Below are positions 1 through 12,055 of a stretch of DNA of 12,514 nt, one piece after another; position 1 is the first letter of the stretch, and each line of letters opens with the position of its first letter. Origin of the DNA: a bacterium. GTDB lineage: Bacteria > UBA9089 > CG2-30-40-21 > SBAY01. The notes under the pieces were generated by a model. It did no database searches. It was not told the origin of the DNA and saw nothing but the letters and a program-made list of their open reading frames with translations. A program made the position numbers and the translations under genes. The stretch is taken from assembly GCA_040757115.1 (NCBI GenBank), contig JBFLYA010000085.1, positions 2,934 to 15,447 of the forward strand, in the 5' to 3' direction.

Positions 1-1629
1 ATACCTCGGGTTTATCTCCAATGCCTCATCATAGCAGGAGATTGCCTCCTGATGTTTGCCAAGATTTACTAAGGTAAGTCCTTTGTTATACCATGCCTCT
101 GCCAACCTCGGGTTTACCTCCAATGCCTCATCATAGCAGGATATTGCCTCCTGATATCTGCCAAGATTTCCTAAGGCAACCCCTTTGTTATACCATGCCA
201 CTGCAAGCCTTGGGTTTATCTCCAATGCCTTATCATAGCAGGAGATTGCCTCATTATATCTACCAAGTCTTCCTAAGACATTCCCTTTGTTATACCATGC
301 CACTGCATACCTTGGGTTTATCTCCAATGCCTTATCACAGCAGGAGATTGCTTCCTGAGGTCTGCCAAGATTGTCTAATGCAGTCCCTTTGTTATTCCAT
401 GTCTCTGCATCCCTTGGGTCTATCTCCAATGCCTCATCATAGCAGGAAATTGCCTCCTGATATCTGCCAAGATTTTTTAAGGTAACTCCTTTGTTATTCC
501 ATACCTCTGCATCCTTTGGGTTTATCTCCAATGCCTCATCATAGCAGGAGATTGCCTCCTGACTTCTACCAAGATTTAATAAGGCAGTCCCTTTGTTACT
601 AAGTTCCCATGCCTCTAATTTTTCCCTCTCAGGTGGGGTTATTTTTTCCCCGGTCTCTTTTAAAAGCAGGTTTTGTAGTTCCTCCCTGATAAGGGTAAAA
701 TTCTGGTATCTTTTATCTGGCTCTTTTTCTAAACATTTTTTAATTATCGGGAAAAGGGATGCTGAAACCCCTGAAACAAGTTCAGGGTCAGCATGACATA
801 TGCCAGGGGGAGAAGGAAGGGGAGGAATCTTACCATATCTATGTAGCCGCTCATATTCTTCTCCGTTTCTACCCACAAAAGGTAATCTTCCATTTCCCGC
901 CATCTGGTATAAGACAAGACCAAAGCTATAGACATCAGACCTTTTGTCGGCCAATCCTTCAAACTGCTCTGGTGCCATATAAGGAAGTGTGCCACAAACC
1001 CTCTTCCCCTTACTTCTAAATATGCTTAAAGAAGATGCTTTCTCTGCAATAACATCCCCCTTAAGTTCTATCTCTTGAAATGCCTTAGCTAAACCAAAGT
1101 CGGTTATCTTTACCGTCTTATCAAAGGTAATCATAATATTATCTGGTTTTATGTCCCGGTGGCTATCTATCCCTTTAGAGTAGGCATACTCCATACCATA
1201 ACAAAACTGGATGGAGAATCTTAAGACCTCAGATAGGGTCAAATCCCCAAGATAATGGCTTAAGGTATTTCTTCCCTGTCTATCCGGGGCAATATATTCA
1301 AGGACAATAAATAGCCTTCCCTCTAATCTCTCTACCCAAAAAGCACGGACAATATAGGGGTGTCTTTCCAATTCTGTCCAGACCCGGGCTTCTCTTTCAA
1401 ATAGCCTTTGGCTATCTTCAGAAAAAAGGTATTGCTCCTGAAAGGTCTTAAGGGCATAAGGTATTTTATGTTCGTGGTCATAGCAGACATAGACCATACC
1501 CATTCCTCCTCCTAATACCTGGTAAATCTCATATCGGTTACCAATCCTATCCCCTACCTGCCATCTACCTGTGTTTGCCCTACTTCTTTCTGCACTCTCT
1601 CTTTTCCCCAAACCTCTAAATATACCCAT
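1..1629 (-). CDS. Ser/Thr protein kinase with C-terminal TPR repeats, copy 1 (partial, runs off left edge)
   Basis: Open from an ATG at 1629 to the window edge (543 codons, no stop seen). A good ribosome site (GAGGAGG) lies just upstream. The N-terminal half is a eukaryotic-type (Hanks) kinase: glycine loop VLGGGMGMVY, ALKTF lysine, HRDIKPDN catalytic loop, DFGLA magnesium motif and GTLPYMAPEQ activation segment, so it should be an active kinase that phosphorylates Ser/Thr on unknown partners. From about base 600 leftwards come at least six 34-residue TPRs (consensus AEAWYNKGxALxNLGRxQEAISCYDEALEINPR), a protein-docking scaffold. It is a paralogue of the kinase at 2400-4397, with near-identical kinase domains. 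Differences are a longer N-terminus and a 17-residue in-frame insertion (757-807) near the end of the kinase domain, which encodes a palindromic repeat. No transmembrane segment is seen, so it is probably cytoplasmic. The true C-terminus is outside the window. Confidence 0.93.
   Translation of the reverse strand, partial: MGIFRGLGKRESAERSRANTGRWQVGDRIGNRYEIYQVLGGGMGMVYVCYDHEHKIPYALKTFQEQYLFSEDSQRLFEREARVWTELERHPYIVRAFWVERLEGRLFIVLEYIAPDRQGRNTLSHYLGDLTLSEVLRFSIQFCYGMEYAYSKGIDSHRDIKPDNIMITFDKTVKITDFGLAKAFQEIELKGDVIAEKASSLSIFRSKGKRVCGTLPYMAPEQFEGLADKRSDVYSFGLVLYQMAGNGRLPFVGRNGEEYERLHRYGKIPPLPSPPGICHADPELVSGVSASLFPIIKKCLEKEPDKRYQNFTLIREELQNLLLKETGEKITPPEREKLEAWELSNKGTALLNLGRSQEAISCYDEALEINPKDAEVWNNKGVTLKNLGRYQEAISCYDEALEIDPRDAETWNNKGTALDNLGRPQEAISCCDKALEINPRYAVAWYNKGNVLGRLGRYNEAISCYDKALEINPRLAVAWYNKGVALGNLGRYQEAISCYDEALEVNPRLAEAWYNKGLTLVNLGKHQEAISCYDEALEINPRY
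757..807. repeat. 51-bp palindromic element inserted in frame in kinase copy 1
   Basis: Absent from the paralogous kinase at the aligned position, where CTT-TTC directly follows the SP codons. The insert holds a hairpin: 759-765 ATGCTGA pairs with 788-794 TCAGCAT, and 769-775 CCCTGAA pairs with 781-787 TTCAGGG, with a three-base one-sided bulge and a five-base loop. Its length is a multiple of three and it adds 17 residues (PGICHADPELVSGVSAS) without stopping the frame. It resembles Rickettsia palindromic elements in behaviour; this is an analogy, not a homology claim. Confidence 0.8.
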
Positions 1630-1696
1630 TGTTTCGCCTCCTCTGTCCTGTTGGAATGCTCCTGGATAAAACCTATTTTTAATCAAAAATCTGGAT

Positions 1697-2399: not shown

Positions 2400-4397
2400 C
2401 TACCTCCTTAAGTCTTGTAGAATCATTTGTTTTAGCTGGTGAACCATTGGTAAATCAGGATTTAACCTTATTGCCTCATCAATACATTCTAATGCCTTTT
2501 GAAACCTTCTCAACTTTGCTAAGGCAAGCCCTTTATTATACCATGCCTCTGCATACCTTGGGTTTATCTCCAATGCCTTATCAAAGCAGGAGATTGCCTC
2601 CTCATATCTGCCAAGATTTCCTAAGGCAATCCCTTTGTTAATCCATGCCTCTGCCAACCTTGGGTTTATCTCCAATGCCTTATCATAGCAGGAGATTGCT
2701 TCCTCATGTCTGCCAAGATTGTCTAAGGCAAACCCTTTGTTAATCCATGCCTCTGCCAACCTTGGGTTTATCTCCAATGCTTCATCACAGCAGGAGATTG
2801 CCTCCTCATATCTGCCAAGCTTTCCTAATGCACCCCCTTTGTTAGACCATGCCTCTGCATACCTTCGGTTTATCTCCAATGCCTCATCATAGCAGGAGAT
2901 TGCCTCCTCACTTTTACCAAGATTTACTAAGGCATTTCCTTTGCTATACCATGCCTCTGCATCCTTTGGGTTTATCTTCAATGCCTTATCAAAACAGGAG
3001 ATTGCTTCCTGATGTCTACCAAGATTGCCTAATGCACTCCCTTTATTATTCCATGTCTCTGTCAGCCTTGGGTTTATCTCCAATGCCTTATCACAGCAGA
3101 AGATTGCCTCCTGATGTCTACCAAGATTCCCTAAGGCAAGCCCTTTGTTATACCATGCCAGTGCCTCTCTTGGATTTATCTTCAATATCTCATCAAAATA
3201 GGATATTGCCTCCTGATGTTTACCAAGCCTTCTTAATACATTCCCTTTGTTACCCCATGCCTCTGCATACCTTGGGTTTATCGCCAATGCCTCATCATAG
3301 CAGGATATTGCCTCCTGATGTCTACCAAGATTCCCTAAGGCAAACCCTTTGTTATACCATACCTCTGCATCCCTTGGGTTTATCTTCAATGCCTTATCAA
3401 AACAGGAGACTGCCTCCTGAAGTCTACCAAGATTTAATAAGGCGGCCCCTTTGTTATAAAGTTCTCCTGCCTCTAATTCTTCCCTCTCAGGTGGGGTTAT
3501 TCTTTCCCCTATTTCTTTTAAAAGCAGGTTTTCTAACTCCTCCCTGATAGAGGTAAAATCCTGGTATCTTTTATCTGGCTCTTTTTCTAAACATCTTTTA
3601 ATGATCGAGAAAAGAGGAGAGGGAAGGAGAGGAATCTTACCATATCTATGTAACCGCTCATATTCTTTTATACTACTGCCCACAAAAGGTAATCTCCCAT
3701 TTCCTGCCATCTGGTATAAGACAATACCAAAGCTATAGACATCAGACCTTTTGTCGGTAACCCCCTCAAACTGCTCTGGTGCCATATAAGGAAGTGTGCC
3801 ACAAACCCTCTTCCCTTTGCTTCTAAATATGCTTAAAGAAGATACCCCTTCTGTGATAACATCCCCCTTAAATTCTATCTCTTGAAATGCCTTAGCTAAA
3901 CCAAAATCGCTTATCTTTACCGTCTTATTAGAGGTTATCATAATATTATCTGGTTTTATGTCCCGATGGCAATCTATCCCTTTAGAGTAGGCATACTCCA
4001 TACCATAACAAAACTGGATGGAGAATTTTAAGACTTCCTGTAGGGTCAAATCCCCAAGAAGATAATGGCTTAAGGTATTTCTTCTCTGTCTATCTGGAGG
4101 AATATATTCAAGGAAAATAAATAGCCTTCCTTCTAATCTACCTACCCAATGAGCACGGACAATATAGGGATGCCTTTCCAATTCTGTCCAGACCAGGGCT
4201 TCTCTTTCAAATAACCTTTGGCCATCTTCAGAAAAAAGGTATTGCTCCTGAAAGGTCTTAAGGGCAACAGGTATTTTAAATTCGTGGTCATAGCAGACAT
4301 AGACAATACCCATTCCTCCCCCTAATACCTGGTAAATCTCATATCGGTCAGCAATTCTATCCCTAACCTGCCATCTACTTGTGTTTGTTTTCCCCAT
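2400..4397 (-). CDS. Ser/Thr protein kinase with ten TPR repeats, copy 2
   Basis: A complete 665-residue protein. The Hanks-type kinase domain spans roughly residues 18-290, with glycine loop LGGGMGIVY (25-33), ATP-binding K47 in VALKTF, HRDIKPDN (144-151, catalytic D146), DFGLA (164-168) and GTLPYMAPEQ (200-209). All key residues are present, so activity is expected. Residues about 311-650 are ten consecutive 34-residue TPRs, nearly identical to one another and visible in the DNA as 102-bp repeats. The last repeat (LRRFQKALECIDEAIRLNPDL) is diverged and acts as the cap. Start at 4397 is backed by GGTGG upstream. The gene begins 11 bp after the AbiEii-like gene on the same strand and is probably cotranscribed with it. 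There are no membrane segments. Targets are unknown; the TPR scaffold suggests docking to protein partners. Confidence 0.95.
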   Translation of the reverse strand: MGKTNTSRWQVRDRIADRYEIYQVLGGGMGIVYVCYDHEFKIPVALKTFQEQYLFSEDGQRLFEREALVWTELERHPYIVRAHWVGRLEGRLFIFLEYIPPDRQRRNTLSHYLLGDLTLQEVLKFSIQFCYGMEYAYSKGIDCHRDIKPDNIMITSNKTVKISDFGLAKAFQEIEFKGDVITEGVSSLSIFRSKGKRVCGTLPYMAPEQFEGVTDKRSDVYSFGIVLYQMAGNGRLPFVGSSIKEYERLHRYGKIPLLPSPLFSIIKRCLEKEPDKRYQDFTSIREELENLLLKEIGERITPPEREELEAGELYNKGAALLNLGRLQEAVSCFDKALKINPRDAEVWYNKGFALGNLGRHQEAISCYDEALAINPRYAEAWGNKGNVLRRLGKHQEAISYFDEILKINPREALAWYNKGLALGNLGRHQEAIFCCDKALEINPRLTETWNNKGSALGNLGRHQEAISCFDKALKINPKDAEAWYSKGNALVNLGKSEEAISCYDEALEINRRYAEAWSNKGGALGKLGRYEEAISCCDEALEINPRLAEAWINKGFALDNLGRHEEAISCYDKALEINPRLAEAWINKGIALGNLGRYEEAISCFDKALEINPRYAEAWYNKGLALAKLRRFQKALECIDEAIRLNPDLPMVHQLKQMILQDLRR

Positions 4398-4408
4398 CGT
4401 TTCACCAC

Positions 4409-5161
4409 CTATAATTTTTCTAAGACCATTTCCTTAATATTCTCAGCAATTCTTCTTTGGTTTAAAGGTAGAAATTTTCCGAGGTCTAATTTTAATCTTT
4501 TCTGGTCAAATCCCCTGATTTTATCTACTAAATCCTTCTGGGTTACTCTTCTGTTATAATATTCCATTTTCTTATTAACCATCACCCAGTCAATTTGTAT
4601 TCCTTTTGAAAGAAGATACCAGATGTCAAAAAGGTCTCTGCCTTTTACCCTATGTATCAATGCCCTTATTTTTTCTGTTAGAATCTCTTCCCACGACAGG
4701 CATTTGATAATAGGATATGGGCTGATGGGAAATAATGTCTCCATAACAACATCTTTTTCAGTCAAAGGCTTTTCCCTTAAAGAAAATTCCAGATGAACAT
4801 TTAAGGGAAATTTCAACTCATCAGTCTTGTATCGCAAAAATCCTGTGAGACTGTTAATGTTAGAAGTAATCTGTCTTAATTCTATTTCAGGCATAAGAAG
4901 ATTTATTTTTCTGATAATTTTGATGAGTAACTTTTTTATTTCATCAGCAGATATTAAAGAGGTAAAATCTAAATCTTCTGAAAATCTGAAGGAATTAAGA
5001 ATTAGTCTCAAGGCTGTGCCGCCTTTGAAATAAATTTTTGAACTCTCTTTTTGCTCATAAAGCGCCGCCAGAAAAAGAATCTGCAAATACTCTCTTAAAC
5101 AAGTGAACTCGTCAATAGCAAATTTATGTGATAATTCTCTAACCTGTTCTTTACTAATCAT
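4409..5161 (-). CDS. AbiEii/AbiGii-family nucleotidyltransferase toxin
   Basis: A 250-residue protein of the nucleotidyltransferase fold. Family motifs are all visible: YFKGGTALRLIL (about 44-55), SEDLDFTS (61-68) with the metal-binding acidic residues, a central EILTEKIRALI segment, and GRDLFDIWYLL near residue 200. AbiEii proteins are toxins of type IV toxin-antitoxin systems; members of this superfamily transfer nucleotides to RNA targets such as tRNA and can cause abortive infection. The start codon overlaps the end of the upstream AbiEi-like gene by 4 bp, the usual coupling of this pair. Length is slightly below the classical AbiEii of about 300 residues but the core is complete. Which substrate it modifies cannot be told from sequence. 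Confidence 0.9.
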   Translation of the reverse strand: MISKEQVRELSHKFAIDEFTCLREYLQILFLAALYEQKESSKIYFKGGTALRLILNSFRFSEDLDFTSLISADEIKKLLIKIIRKINLLMPEIELRQITSNINSLTGFLRYKTDELKFPLNVHLEFSLREKPLTEKDVVMETLFPISPYPIIKCLSWEEILTEKIRALIHRVKGRDLFDIWYLLSKGIQIDWVMVNKKMEYYNRRVTQKDLVDKIRGFDQKRLKLDLGKFLPLNQRRIAENIKEMVLEKL

Positions 5162-5748
5162 AGTTTTATATTCAATGAATCAAAGAAATTGCCAAAAATT
5201 TCACTCTTAATCTTGCCAGATAGTTCTCTTAACCTCTTTTTATCAATCTTATCTAATACCCATTCTTCAGGATTAATTACCGTTCTCCCATAACTTGCAA
5301 AGAAGATGGTATCAACAATGGCTTTTTCAGGGGTTGCGATAAGAAAATGTTGCTCTTTAATATAATCTGAATAATATCTTTGGTCTAAATGAAAATAGGC
5401 AAATTCTTTATTTACCGCCCTTATTTTTTTAGCCCTTTTGATGGTAACTGAAGTTATAACCTGTGGCACCTGAATTAAAATACCATAGTATGCCAGAGCA
5501 GATTCTAAAGAAACATAGGAGGGTTTATAGAGGAAATTAGCTATCTCAAAATCTGTAGGTTTTTTATCTTTTAAACAATATACTCCTTTAGCTATTCTGT
5601 CTAATAGACCCTCCTTCGTCAGCCTATTTGCCTGAATGTAGGCGATGTTATCACTTTCACTTCTGAGGAGTTTTTTAAGGTCAATCAGACTAAAAATATC
5701 TCTTCTGGATTTCTGTAATATAAGCAGTGCTTCTATCTTCTTCATCAT
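5158..5748 (-). CDS. AbiEi-like antitoxin / autoregulatory wHTH protein
   Basis: A 196-residue protein. The first about 60 residues form a winged helix-turn-helix (LIDLKKLLRSESDNIAYIQANRLTKEGLLDRIAKGVYCLK). A domain typical of AbiEi-family antitoxins follows, with PSYVSLESALAYYG near residue 80 and ATPEKAIVDTIFF near 140. In characterised AbiE systems this protein binds inverted repeats in its own promoter and counters the nucleotidyltransferase toxin encoded next. Two adjacent ATGs (5748 and 5745) follow an AAGGA motif; the second has the better spacing. A strong promoter and palindrome lie just upstream. The 4-bp overlap with the toxin gene points to coupled translation. Confidence 0.88.
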   Translation of the reverse strand: MMKKIEALLILQKSRRDIFSLIDLKKLLRSESDNIAYIQANRLTKEGLLDRIAKGVYCLKDKKPTDFEIANFLYKPSYVSLESALAYYGILIQVPQVITSVTIKRAKKIRAVNKEFAYFHLDQRYYSDYIKEQHFLIATPEKAIVDTIFFASYGRTVINPEEWVLDKIDKKRLRELSGKIKSEIFGNFFDSLNIKL

Positions 5749-5848: not shown

Positions 5849-6152
5849 GTAATTATTCAGCCACAGATAAATACGGATGAAACACTGAAAATTCGTAATC
5901 CGTGTCCGTTTTCCGTGTCCGTAATCAGGCTGAAGGCTGATGGCTGAAAATTCAGGTATAGTGCCTCGTGTCTCCTCTCCTTCTCCGCTTCTCCCTTTCT
6001 CCGTTTCCCCGTTTCCCCCTTTCTCATTTGTCCTCTACCCTCTGCCTTCTGCCCTCTGCCCTCTGCCTTCTGCCCTCTGCCCTCTGCCCTCTGCCTTCTG
6101 CCCCCTGTATTTATCCGTGCTAATCCGTGTCAATCAGTGGCTGAATAGTTAC
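5849..6152. mobile_element. MITE-like inverted-repeat element 2 (GTAAYYRTTCAG family)
   Basis: The left end GTAATTATTCAGCCACAGAT (5849-5868) and the complement of the right end, GTAACTATTCAGCCACTGAT (6152-6133), match at 18 of 20 positions. Inside are further inverted ATACGGAT / ATCCGTAT-like blocks, three GGCTGAW heptamers (5928-5948), a polypyrimidine stretch and a CTCTGCC tandem array. No gene is credible here: the open frame across it is low-complexity. It fills most of the gap between the abiE promoter and hisC. Confidence 0.7.
6033..6102. repeat. Heptamer tandem repeat (YTCTGCC)x10
   Basis: Ten uninterrupted 7-bp units, mainly CTCTGCC and TTCTGCC with one CTCTACC at the left. They lie inside a longer all-pyrimidine tract that starts near 5970. 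It resembles the short tandemly repeated heptamers known from cyanobacteria and other genomes and is likely length-variable by slippage. Confidence 0.9.
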
Positions 6153-10798: not shown

Positions 10799-12055
10799 AT
10801 GAGTGAAGTATTTAGTGGTTCAGTAGCGACAGTAGCAATCAAATCTGCTTATGCGCTGATTGTAGGCATTGGACAATATAGCGATCCGCGTATTCGAAAG
10901 CTTGATTTCACTCATGCCGATGCTCAAGCATTTTGTGACTTATTGTTGAATCCACAGCACGTTGGATTCTTAAAGGAGAATGTCAAACTGCTATTGGACG
11001 AGCAGGCGACTTTATTCAATATCAAGAATGCGATTACTGGATGGCTCTATAAATACACCGGTTCCGAATCGACGGTAATTATTTTCTTCGCTGGACATGG
11101 CGGTGTAGAAAGTGACAAGGAAGACACTGAAAAAGATGGGATTGCCAAATATCTTCTGCCGTGGGATACGAACCCTGACGATTTATTTGCCTCAGCGCTA
11201 TCAAACACCGACTTTCACCGGCTATTGAGCACGATTAAGGCTCAGCGATTGATTATTTTCCTGGATGCATGCTACGCGGGTGGCGTGGCTCAGCGAGGAT
11301 CGCGGGATTTGGGAATCGTAGAAAATCCCTGCGAGCGGTTGGCACAGGGAGAAGGCAGGTTAGTGATTTCAGCGGCTAAACCGAATCAACGTTCCTGGGA
11401 AGACCCTACCATTGGCCATGGTATTTTTACCCATCATCTACTGGAGGCGCTAAAGGGCAAAGCAGATATGGACAACGACGGCTATGTGTCAATCTGGGAG
11501 GTCTATAAATACCTCGAACGGGAGGTGTCCCAGAGCGCGCGATGTTTGGCCAAAAGTATCCAGGAACCTCTTTTCTGTGGGGACATGGCAAAAGATATCT
11601 TTCTGACCGCAGACGCCCAGCGCATAGCCAAACTTGCCTTTCAGCGTTCCGAAGCCGAACGCCGGTGCAGAGAGGAAATACAACTGAAACGACGCAAGCT
11701 GTTCGATCTTTATGATCGCGGCGAATTCCCATCAGACGCTTATCAGGAAGCTATGAGCCTTATCGACAAACCTCTCACTGAAATGACTACAAAGGATAGC
11801 AAATTAGCGAAGAATCTTGAGGCACTGTTAAAGGACGGACTTTCCGCTGAGGTCTATCTTGAAAACCGTGACTCTATTCGTTCACAAATGGAACGAAAAG
11901 ATTCCGACCGTTCCCCAGTTCAACCTCCACCACAAGACACTAAATCCCCAGGGCTAAAGCCACCTAAAACAGAGATGAAATATTGTATTCATTGTGGTAC
12001 GCAAATCAATCTTCAGAACAAGTTTTGCATTAACTGCGGTTGGTCAATTCAATGA
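10799..12055 (+). CDS. Caspase-family (peptidase C14) protease with EF-hand-like loop and C-terminal zinc ribbon
   Basis: A 418-residue protein. Residues about 16-270 are a caspase/metacaspase-type p20-p10 domain: YALIVGIGQY strand, FFAGHGG with catalytic H100, and FLDACYAGG with catalytic C158. Both dyad residues are present, so proteolysis is expected, likely after basic residues if it is metacaspase-like. D223-E234 (DMDNDGYVSIWE) fits a canonical calcium-binding EF-hand loop and could make activity calcium-dependent. Residues 290-360 are charged and helical, with an LFDLYDRGEFPSDAYQEAMSLI stretch like short SHOCT-type oligomerisation motifs. A Pro-rich linker (about 370-392) leads to a zinc ribbon (C396, C399, C410, C413). 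No membrane segment or signal peptide. The ribbon resembles that of the protein at 9524 and may tether the protease to it or to a shared partner. A role in programmed death or stress response is inferred from the family. Confidence 0.92.
   Translation: MSEVFSGSVATVAIKSAYALIVGIGQYSDPRIRKLDFTHADAQAFCDLLLNPQHVGFLKENVKLLLDEQATLFNIKNAITGWLYKYTGSESTVIIFFAGHGGVESDKEDTEKDGIAKYLLPWDTNPDDLFASALSNTDFHRLLSTIKAQRLIIFLDACYAGGVAQRGSRDLGIVENPCERLAQGEGRLVISAAKPNQRSWEDPTIGHGIFTHHLLEALKGKADMDNDGYVSIWEVYKYLEREVSQSARCLAKSIQEPLFCGDMAKDIFLTADAQRIAKLAFQRSEAERRCREEIQLKRRKLFDLYDRGEFPSDAYQEAMSLIDKPLTEMTTKDSKLAKNLEALLKDGLSAEVYLENRDSIRSQMERKDSDRSPVQPPPQDTKSPGLKPPKTEMKYCIHCGTQINLQNKFCINCGWSIQ

Follow-up and report, generated by a model that had tools for sequence, protein, structure and literature searches.

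The window, by which the whole stretch of 12,514 nt analysed here is meant, contains two tandem kinase genes, one of which carries a palindromic segment of 51 bp that is missing from the other. The question raised by this locus is whether the segment is a native part of the kinase or a repeat that entered the gene and, in the latter case, to which kind of repeat it belongs and how it may have arrived. As argued below, the insert is probably one CGTC-tagged REP unit whose stem is nested and extended; its entry into copy 1 most likely followed duplication of the gene.

The insert and its empty site

Both kinase genes lie on the minus strand, and in each the kinase domain precedes TPR repeats. 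Between the kinase parts of the two genes, identity is 86% at the protein level and about 90% at the DNA level.

1-1686, minus strand: kinase copy 1, with TPR repeats (Pkinase 2.8e-37); extends past the window edge; insertion target
2400-4397, minus strand: kinase copy 2, with TPR repeats (Pkinase 1.9e-34); empty site, by alignment
757-807, minus strand: 51-bp in-frame insert in copy 1, coding for PGICHADPELVSGVSAS; absent in the paralogue and 20 other homologues

Alignment of the DNA of the two copies gives one large clean gap, 51 bp at 757-807, between flanks that are about 90% identical. The 17 codons of the insert preserve the reading frame and add their residues between GKIPPLPSP and LFPIIKKCLEKEPDKRY, a site that we take, from general knowledge of the kinase fold and with placement by alignment only, to be the loop before helix H. 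These residues are absent from the paralogue and from all 20 other kinase homologues compared, which come from the host genome and its relatives. The coordinates, length, kept frame and hairpin proposed in the sequence-only reading of this DNA are correct, as is its description of the segment as cleanly absent from the other paralogue; the check on orthologous kinases that it suggested, made here with homologues, finds the insert in none of them. The HRD and DFG motifs are both preserved; the dN/dS of about 0.35 between the copies is consistent with kinase genes under constraint. An AlphaFold model of the kinase, made from a two-sequence alignment, was unusable (mean pLDDT 37).

The polarity of the indel is judged both from the alignment and from what the repeat is. 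A gain in copy 1 is likely, with the caution that copy 2 is shorter at this position than most kinases; other homologues have about 10 residues there. No target-site duplication is evident at the insert when copies 1 and 2 are compared.

The kinases are adjoined by an AbiEii-type toxin and AbiEi-type antitoxin pair (4409-5748). The window also encodes a caspase-like peptidase (Peptidase_C14; 10799-12055) with a C-terminal zinc ribbon, and a DUF4384 protein and a second zinc-ribbon protein lie nearby.

The repeat was earlier given the size of the whole insert; 51 bp is correct for the insert, and the repeat unit itself is 43 nt. On the coding strand (798-756) it reads TGTC-ATGCTGA-CCCTGAA-CTTGT-TTCAGGG-GTT-TCAGCAT-CCC, with the following parts.

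756-798, minus strand: nested palindromic unit, 43 nt, from TGTC tag to CCC tail (R1 match, E 0.00017; 40/43 identical to the L055 unit)
795-798, minus strand: tag TGTC, unpaired (from the sequence; compare the C53 unit)
788-794, minus strand: outer stem, 5' arm ATGCTGA (fold and outer-stem scan)
781-787, minus strand: inner stem, 5' arm CCCTGAA (fold)
776-780, minus strand: apical loop CTTGT (fold)
769-775, minus strand: inner stem, 3' arm TTCAGGG (fold)
766-768, minus strand: one-sided bulge GTT, 3 nt (geometry shared by most nested units found)
759-765, minus strand: outer stem, 3' arm TCAGCAT (fold and outer-stem scan)
756-758, minus strand: tail CCC (from the sequence); the final C, at 756, may be native

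Model R1 comprises 17 units chosen by eye, one row of which is absent from the data as typed. The remaining 9 nt at 799-807 (CCTGGCATA, coding strand) are inside the insert and outside the unit. Folded as single-stranded DNA, the insert region reaches -12.4 kcal/mol; shuffled sequences average -5.7 (z -3.6), and 0 of 200 shuffles folded as well. The unusual feature of the unit is its nested stem with a one-sided 3-nt bulge.

Units in the host genome and in other lineages

The host genome, of 4.3 Mb, has two exact copies of the 15-mer core, CTGAACTTGTTTCAG, with 0 occurrences of the reversed control and a chance expectation of about 0.01 as estimated from sequence length. The second site, on contig C53, is a plain unit, TGTC-ATGCTGAA-CTTGT-TTCAGCAT-CCC, which has the outer stem and tail of the window unit and is paired with an inverted partner, TGTCATTCCGAACTCGTTTCGGAATCTC, 4 bases away with the tags outside. 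In addition to the window unit, a covariance model of plain units recovers the C53 pair and a degraded pair on C265. The host genome holds about five units, and further copies, for which the sequence-only reading suggested a search, do exist. The C53 and C265 units sit between ORFs, which leaves the window copy as the one intragenic unit found in the host. A genome-wide habit of the "protein-invading" kind named in that reading is thus not demonstrated in the host, in which just one of about five units is intragenic.

Among 18 other genomes of the host phylum, no match to the exact core was found; a few relatives carry single, more divergent units, and a degraded nested unit, TGTCATCCTGACCCGGACCTTATTTCAGGAGTCTCAGGATCTA, is present in a genome of the same genus (L175). 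Matches to CTGAAC..TTCAG at two mismatches in the host genome are mostly chance-like (reversed control 1 and 3). The 56-bp region had no match in phage and plasmid collections, the nested unit had no exact match in viral contigs, and an Rfam search of the window returned nothing. A longer palindrome with GATTCAG, roughly CCTG.CCTGAACTTGATTCAGGACAGG, occurs in the host genome (L006, L016, L019, L023 and L030, on contigs C212, C24, C9, C47 and C265), with several copies between ORFs; it contains the core without a TGTC tag and was kept out of the family.

Two other dispersed repeats in the window are very abundant and abundant, respectively. The inverted pair AGCCACAGATAAATACGGAT / ATCCGTGTCAATCAGTGGCT (5849-5878 / 6123-6152) has, at two mismatches or fewer, 277 matches in the host genome against 0 for the reversed control, 185 in the same-genus genome, 260 in genome G008 and few in most other relatives. 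An inverted pair around ACCGCAGAGACGCAGAG (2085-2124 / 2277-2316) has 443 host matches against 12 reversed at the same threshold, and 369 in the same-genus genome. Between the arms of the ATCCGTGT repeat pair lie tandem arrays (5981-6107) with units of 8 bp, TTCTCCGT, and of 7 bp, CCTCTGC.

An exact scan with TGACCCTGAACTTGTTTCAGGG, using one genome per species, returned 35 stretches, with the core in about nine lineages: Dehalococcoidia, Fibrobacter, sphingomonads, Muricauda, Nitrospirae, Nitrospinota, TA06, WOR-3 and Gastranaerophilales, in addition to two records labelled just bacteria. Allowing at most one mismatch, the core occurs 191 times in the Dehalococcoidia MAG CG2_30_46_9 against 0 for the reversed control. 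Of 13 further genomes, eleven have between 16 and 61 copies, with 0 or 1 for the control, and the signal was weak in two (2 vs 1 and 6 vs 1). The general pattern of the unit is GTCA-NN-CTGAACTTGTTTCAG-N'N'-TC, and the free NN stem positions pair in 42 of 43 distinct tagged units, which were taken by tag and core alone, compared with a mean of 14.3 and a maximum of 22 in shuffles. A nested unit in another phylum, the L055 unit TGTCATGCTGACCCTGAACTTGATTCAGGGGATTCAGCATCTC of a Dehalococcoidia MAG, is identical to the window unit at 40/43 positions. The same nested geometry is seen in TA06 and Nitrospirae MAGs as well. Most nested units share one geometry (gap of 0 bases upstream and 3 downstream), with outer stems ATGCTGA, ATTCCGA, CCCTGA and TCCTGA, and their outer and inner stems vary independently.

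Entry into many genes is seen in the Dehalococcoidia MAG only. In 40 of its contigs (386 kb), nearly all selected for the core and with crude gene calls, 45 of 108 core copies are located within ORFs (minimum length 100 aa), 12 at ORF edges and 51 between ORFs; since ORFs make up 86% of these contigs, genes are still avoided by the core. The GTCA tag is missing in 44 of the 45 intragenic copies, and most of these are therefore bare cores, unlike the tagged window unit; the nested form accounts for 8/108 copies. None of the 33 intragenic cores examined uses the phase in which CTGA would give the stop codon TGA. The genes that contain the core include those for PheRS beta (L137 7233-9846), an oxidoreductase (L142 492-1893; three copies of the core) and ribosomal protein L3 (L135 3912-4542). 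For ribosomal protein L3 and PheRS beta, alignment with PDB homologues reveals small differences in length at the core, but these homologues are too distant to decide the matter. In one gene with three cores, comparison with an 80%-identical orthologue gives net changes of +15, +15 and 0 bp, which means that there is no fixed gain length at these sites. The presence of both gains and no net change rules out that all intragenic copies in this MAG are replacements.

Proposed origin and movement of the unit

We infer that the unit moved into copy 1, and its path may be sketched as follows. The unit would spread as a hairpin-forming DNA strand; copying of this strand to new sites would depend on an enzyme, or on a repair process, that is encoded separately. 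In copy 1 the insert was probably tolerated because it landed in the loop between kinase helices G and H, because the stem leaves the frame open, and because its total length is divisible by three; copies in the TGA-giving CTGA frame, or with a length that shifts the frame, would not persist. The simplest route to nesting would be replacement of the loop of a ATGCTGAA..TTCAGCAT unit by a CCCTGAA..TTCAGGG hairpin. No fixed insert length or target-site duplication was found; the variable net lengths and the lack of an evident duplication would also allow template switching or the integration of single-stranded DNA. The search for a mobilising enzyme of the unit gave none. Two features count against assignment of the insert to the CGTC-tagged REPs: the nested stem departs from the published stem of 8-9 bp and loop of 4-5 nt, and the copy number is low for a REP.

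It is possible, though rather doubtful, that a distinct element is represented by the nested core (NNCTGA-CCCTGAACTTGWTTCAGGG-GNT-TCAGNN) together with its untagged relatives. Such an element would cross phyla, readily enter the genes of some hosts, and move by a mechanism yet to be identified.

Movement by a RAYT/Y1 (IS200-like) transposase of the host, as with GTAG REPs, is unlikely. Six Y1_Tnp matches are present in the host genome, and the combination of a hairpin and an unpaired tag is reminiscent of RAYT substrates. However, the fetched flanks of Y1 loci in the host and four other hosts contain no convincing unit, and Y1_Tnp matches are absent from two hosts rich in the core, Muricauda M10 and the Dehalococcoidia MAG, of which the latter is incomplete. 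The published survey also gives no transposase link for CGTC REPs (Di Nocera et al., 2013; PMC3733652), and a RAYT-like route is not supported.

Formation of the palindrome at the site itself, with no arriving unit, through template switching or a hairpin-directed repair of the sequence there, is consistent with the lack of an evident target duplication and with the variable net lengths at the three Dehalococcoidia sites. It is nevertheless improbable as the origin of the insert, because it leaves unexplained both the 40/43 identity, with the same tag and tail, to a unit in another phylum and the C53 plain unit with the same outer stem. The nesting step, on the other hand, could have arisen by mutation in place.

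That the segment is a native loop of the copy 1 kinase, palindromic by chance and deleted from the paralogue, is likewise very improbable, for although the shortness of copy 2 and the roughly 10 residues of other homologues speak in its favour, the segment matches a dispersed repeat elsewhere in the host genome and in other phyla, and similar sequence is found in 0/20 other homologues.

Comparison with known repeat systems

In the survey of Di Nocera et al. (2013; PMC3733652), most REPs fall into two superfamilies, GTAG and CGTC. As described there, CGTC units have an unpaired CGTC, TGTC or CCTC tag at one end, a stem of 8-9 bp starting with AT, a loop of 4-5 nt and a short tail, mostly CCA; they form HH dimers with the tags outside, may be intragenic, and have no transposase link. 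They are reported to be without a dedicated transposase. The insert beside a 90%-identical empty site, the near-identical nested unit in another phylum and the Dehalococcoidia MAG with 191 copies provide concrete test cases for the spread of such hairpins and their absorption by proteins.

The window unit appears to fit the published features of CGTC-tagged REPs except for its nested stem. Its tag is TGTC, and the stems of the window and C53 units begin with A-T and then T-A pairs (AT...AT). The C53 plain unit has an 8-bp stem and a 5-nt loop, whereas the window unit has nested stems of 7 + 7 bp, a 3-nt bulge and a 5-nt loop. The short tail of the window unit is CCC, and CCA occurs in Sphingomonas units. 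HH dimers are represented by the C53 pair, with tags outside and 4 bp apart; the window unit is single. At the Y1 loci, the class examined, the units do not flank transposase genes. Unlike CGTC-tagged REPs, the window unit has a nested stem with a one-sided bulge and a low copy number in its host, and the host lineage appears not to be among those named for CGTC REPs in the survey.

GTAG REPs and REPINs, which are RAYT-associated, resemble the window unit in the short hairpin, unpaired tag and inverted dimers, and differ from it in the tag and in the RAYT gene association, which was not found here.

The likeness to Rickettsia RPE suggested by the sequence-only reading holds. It goes further than that reading proposed, since the tagged structure agrees with that of the CGTC superfamily, where R. 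conorii RPE-6 has been placed in CGTC-1 and RPE-4 in CGTC-4 (Di Nocera et al., 2013; PMC3733652). As with these repeats, the window insert is palindromic and in-frame within an ORF, a likeness of class and not a claim of membership in an RPE family; unlike RPE-4 and RPE-6, a single intragenic unit was found in the host genome. In the searchable open-access literature, the core strings and the peptide HPELVSG had no match and further peptide strings occurred only in two unrelated papers. The kind of repeat, which the same reading thought might be undescribed in its organism, is nevertheless already known from the survey as CGTC-tagged REPs. The nested form recurring across phyla is a structural variation of this kind, and nesting itself has a parallel in the self-complementary loops described for some GTAG families, such as GTAG-14, in the survey (Di Nocera et al., 2013; PMC3733652).
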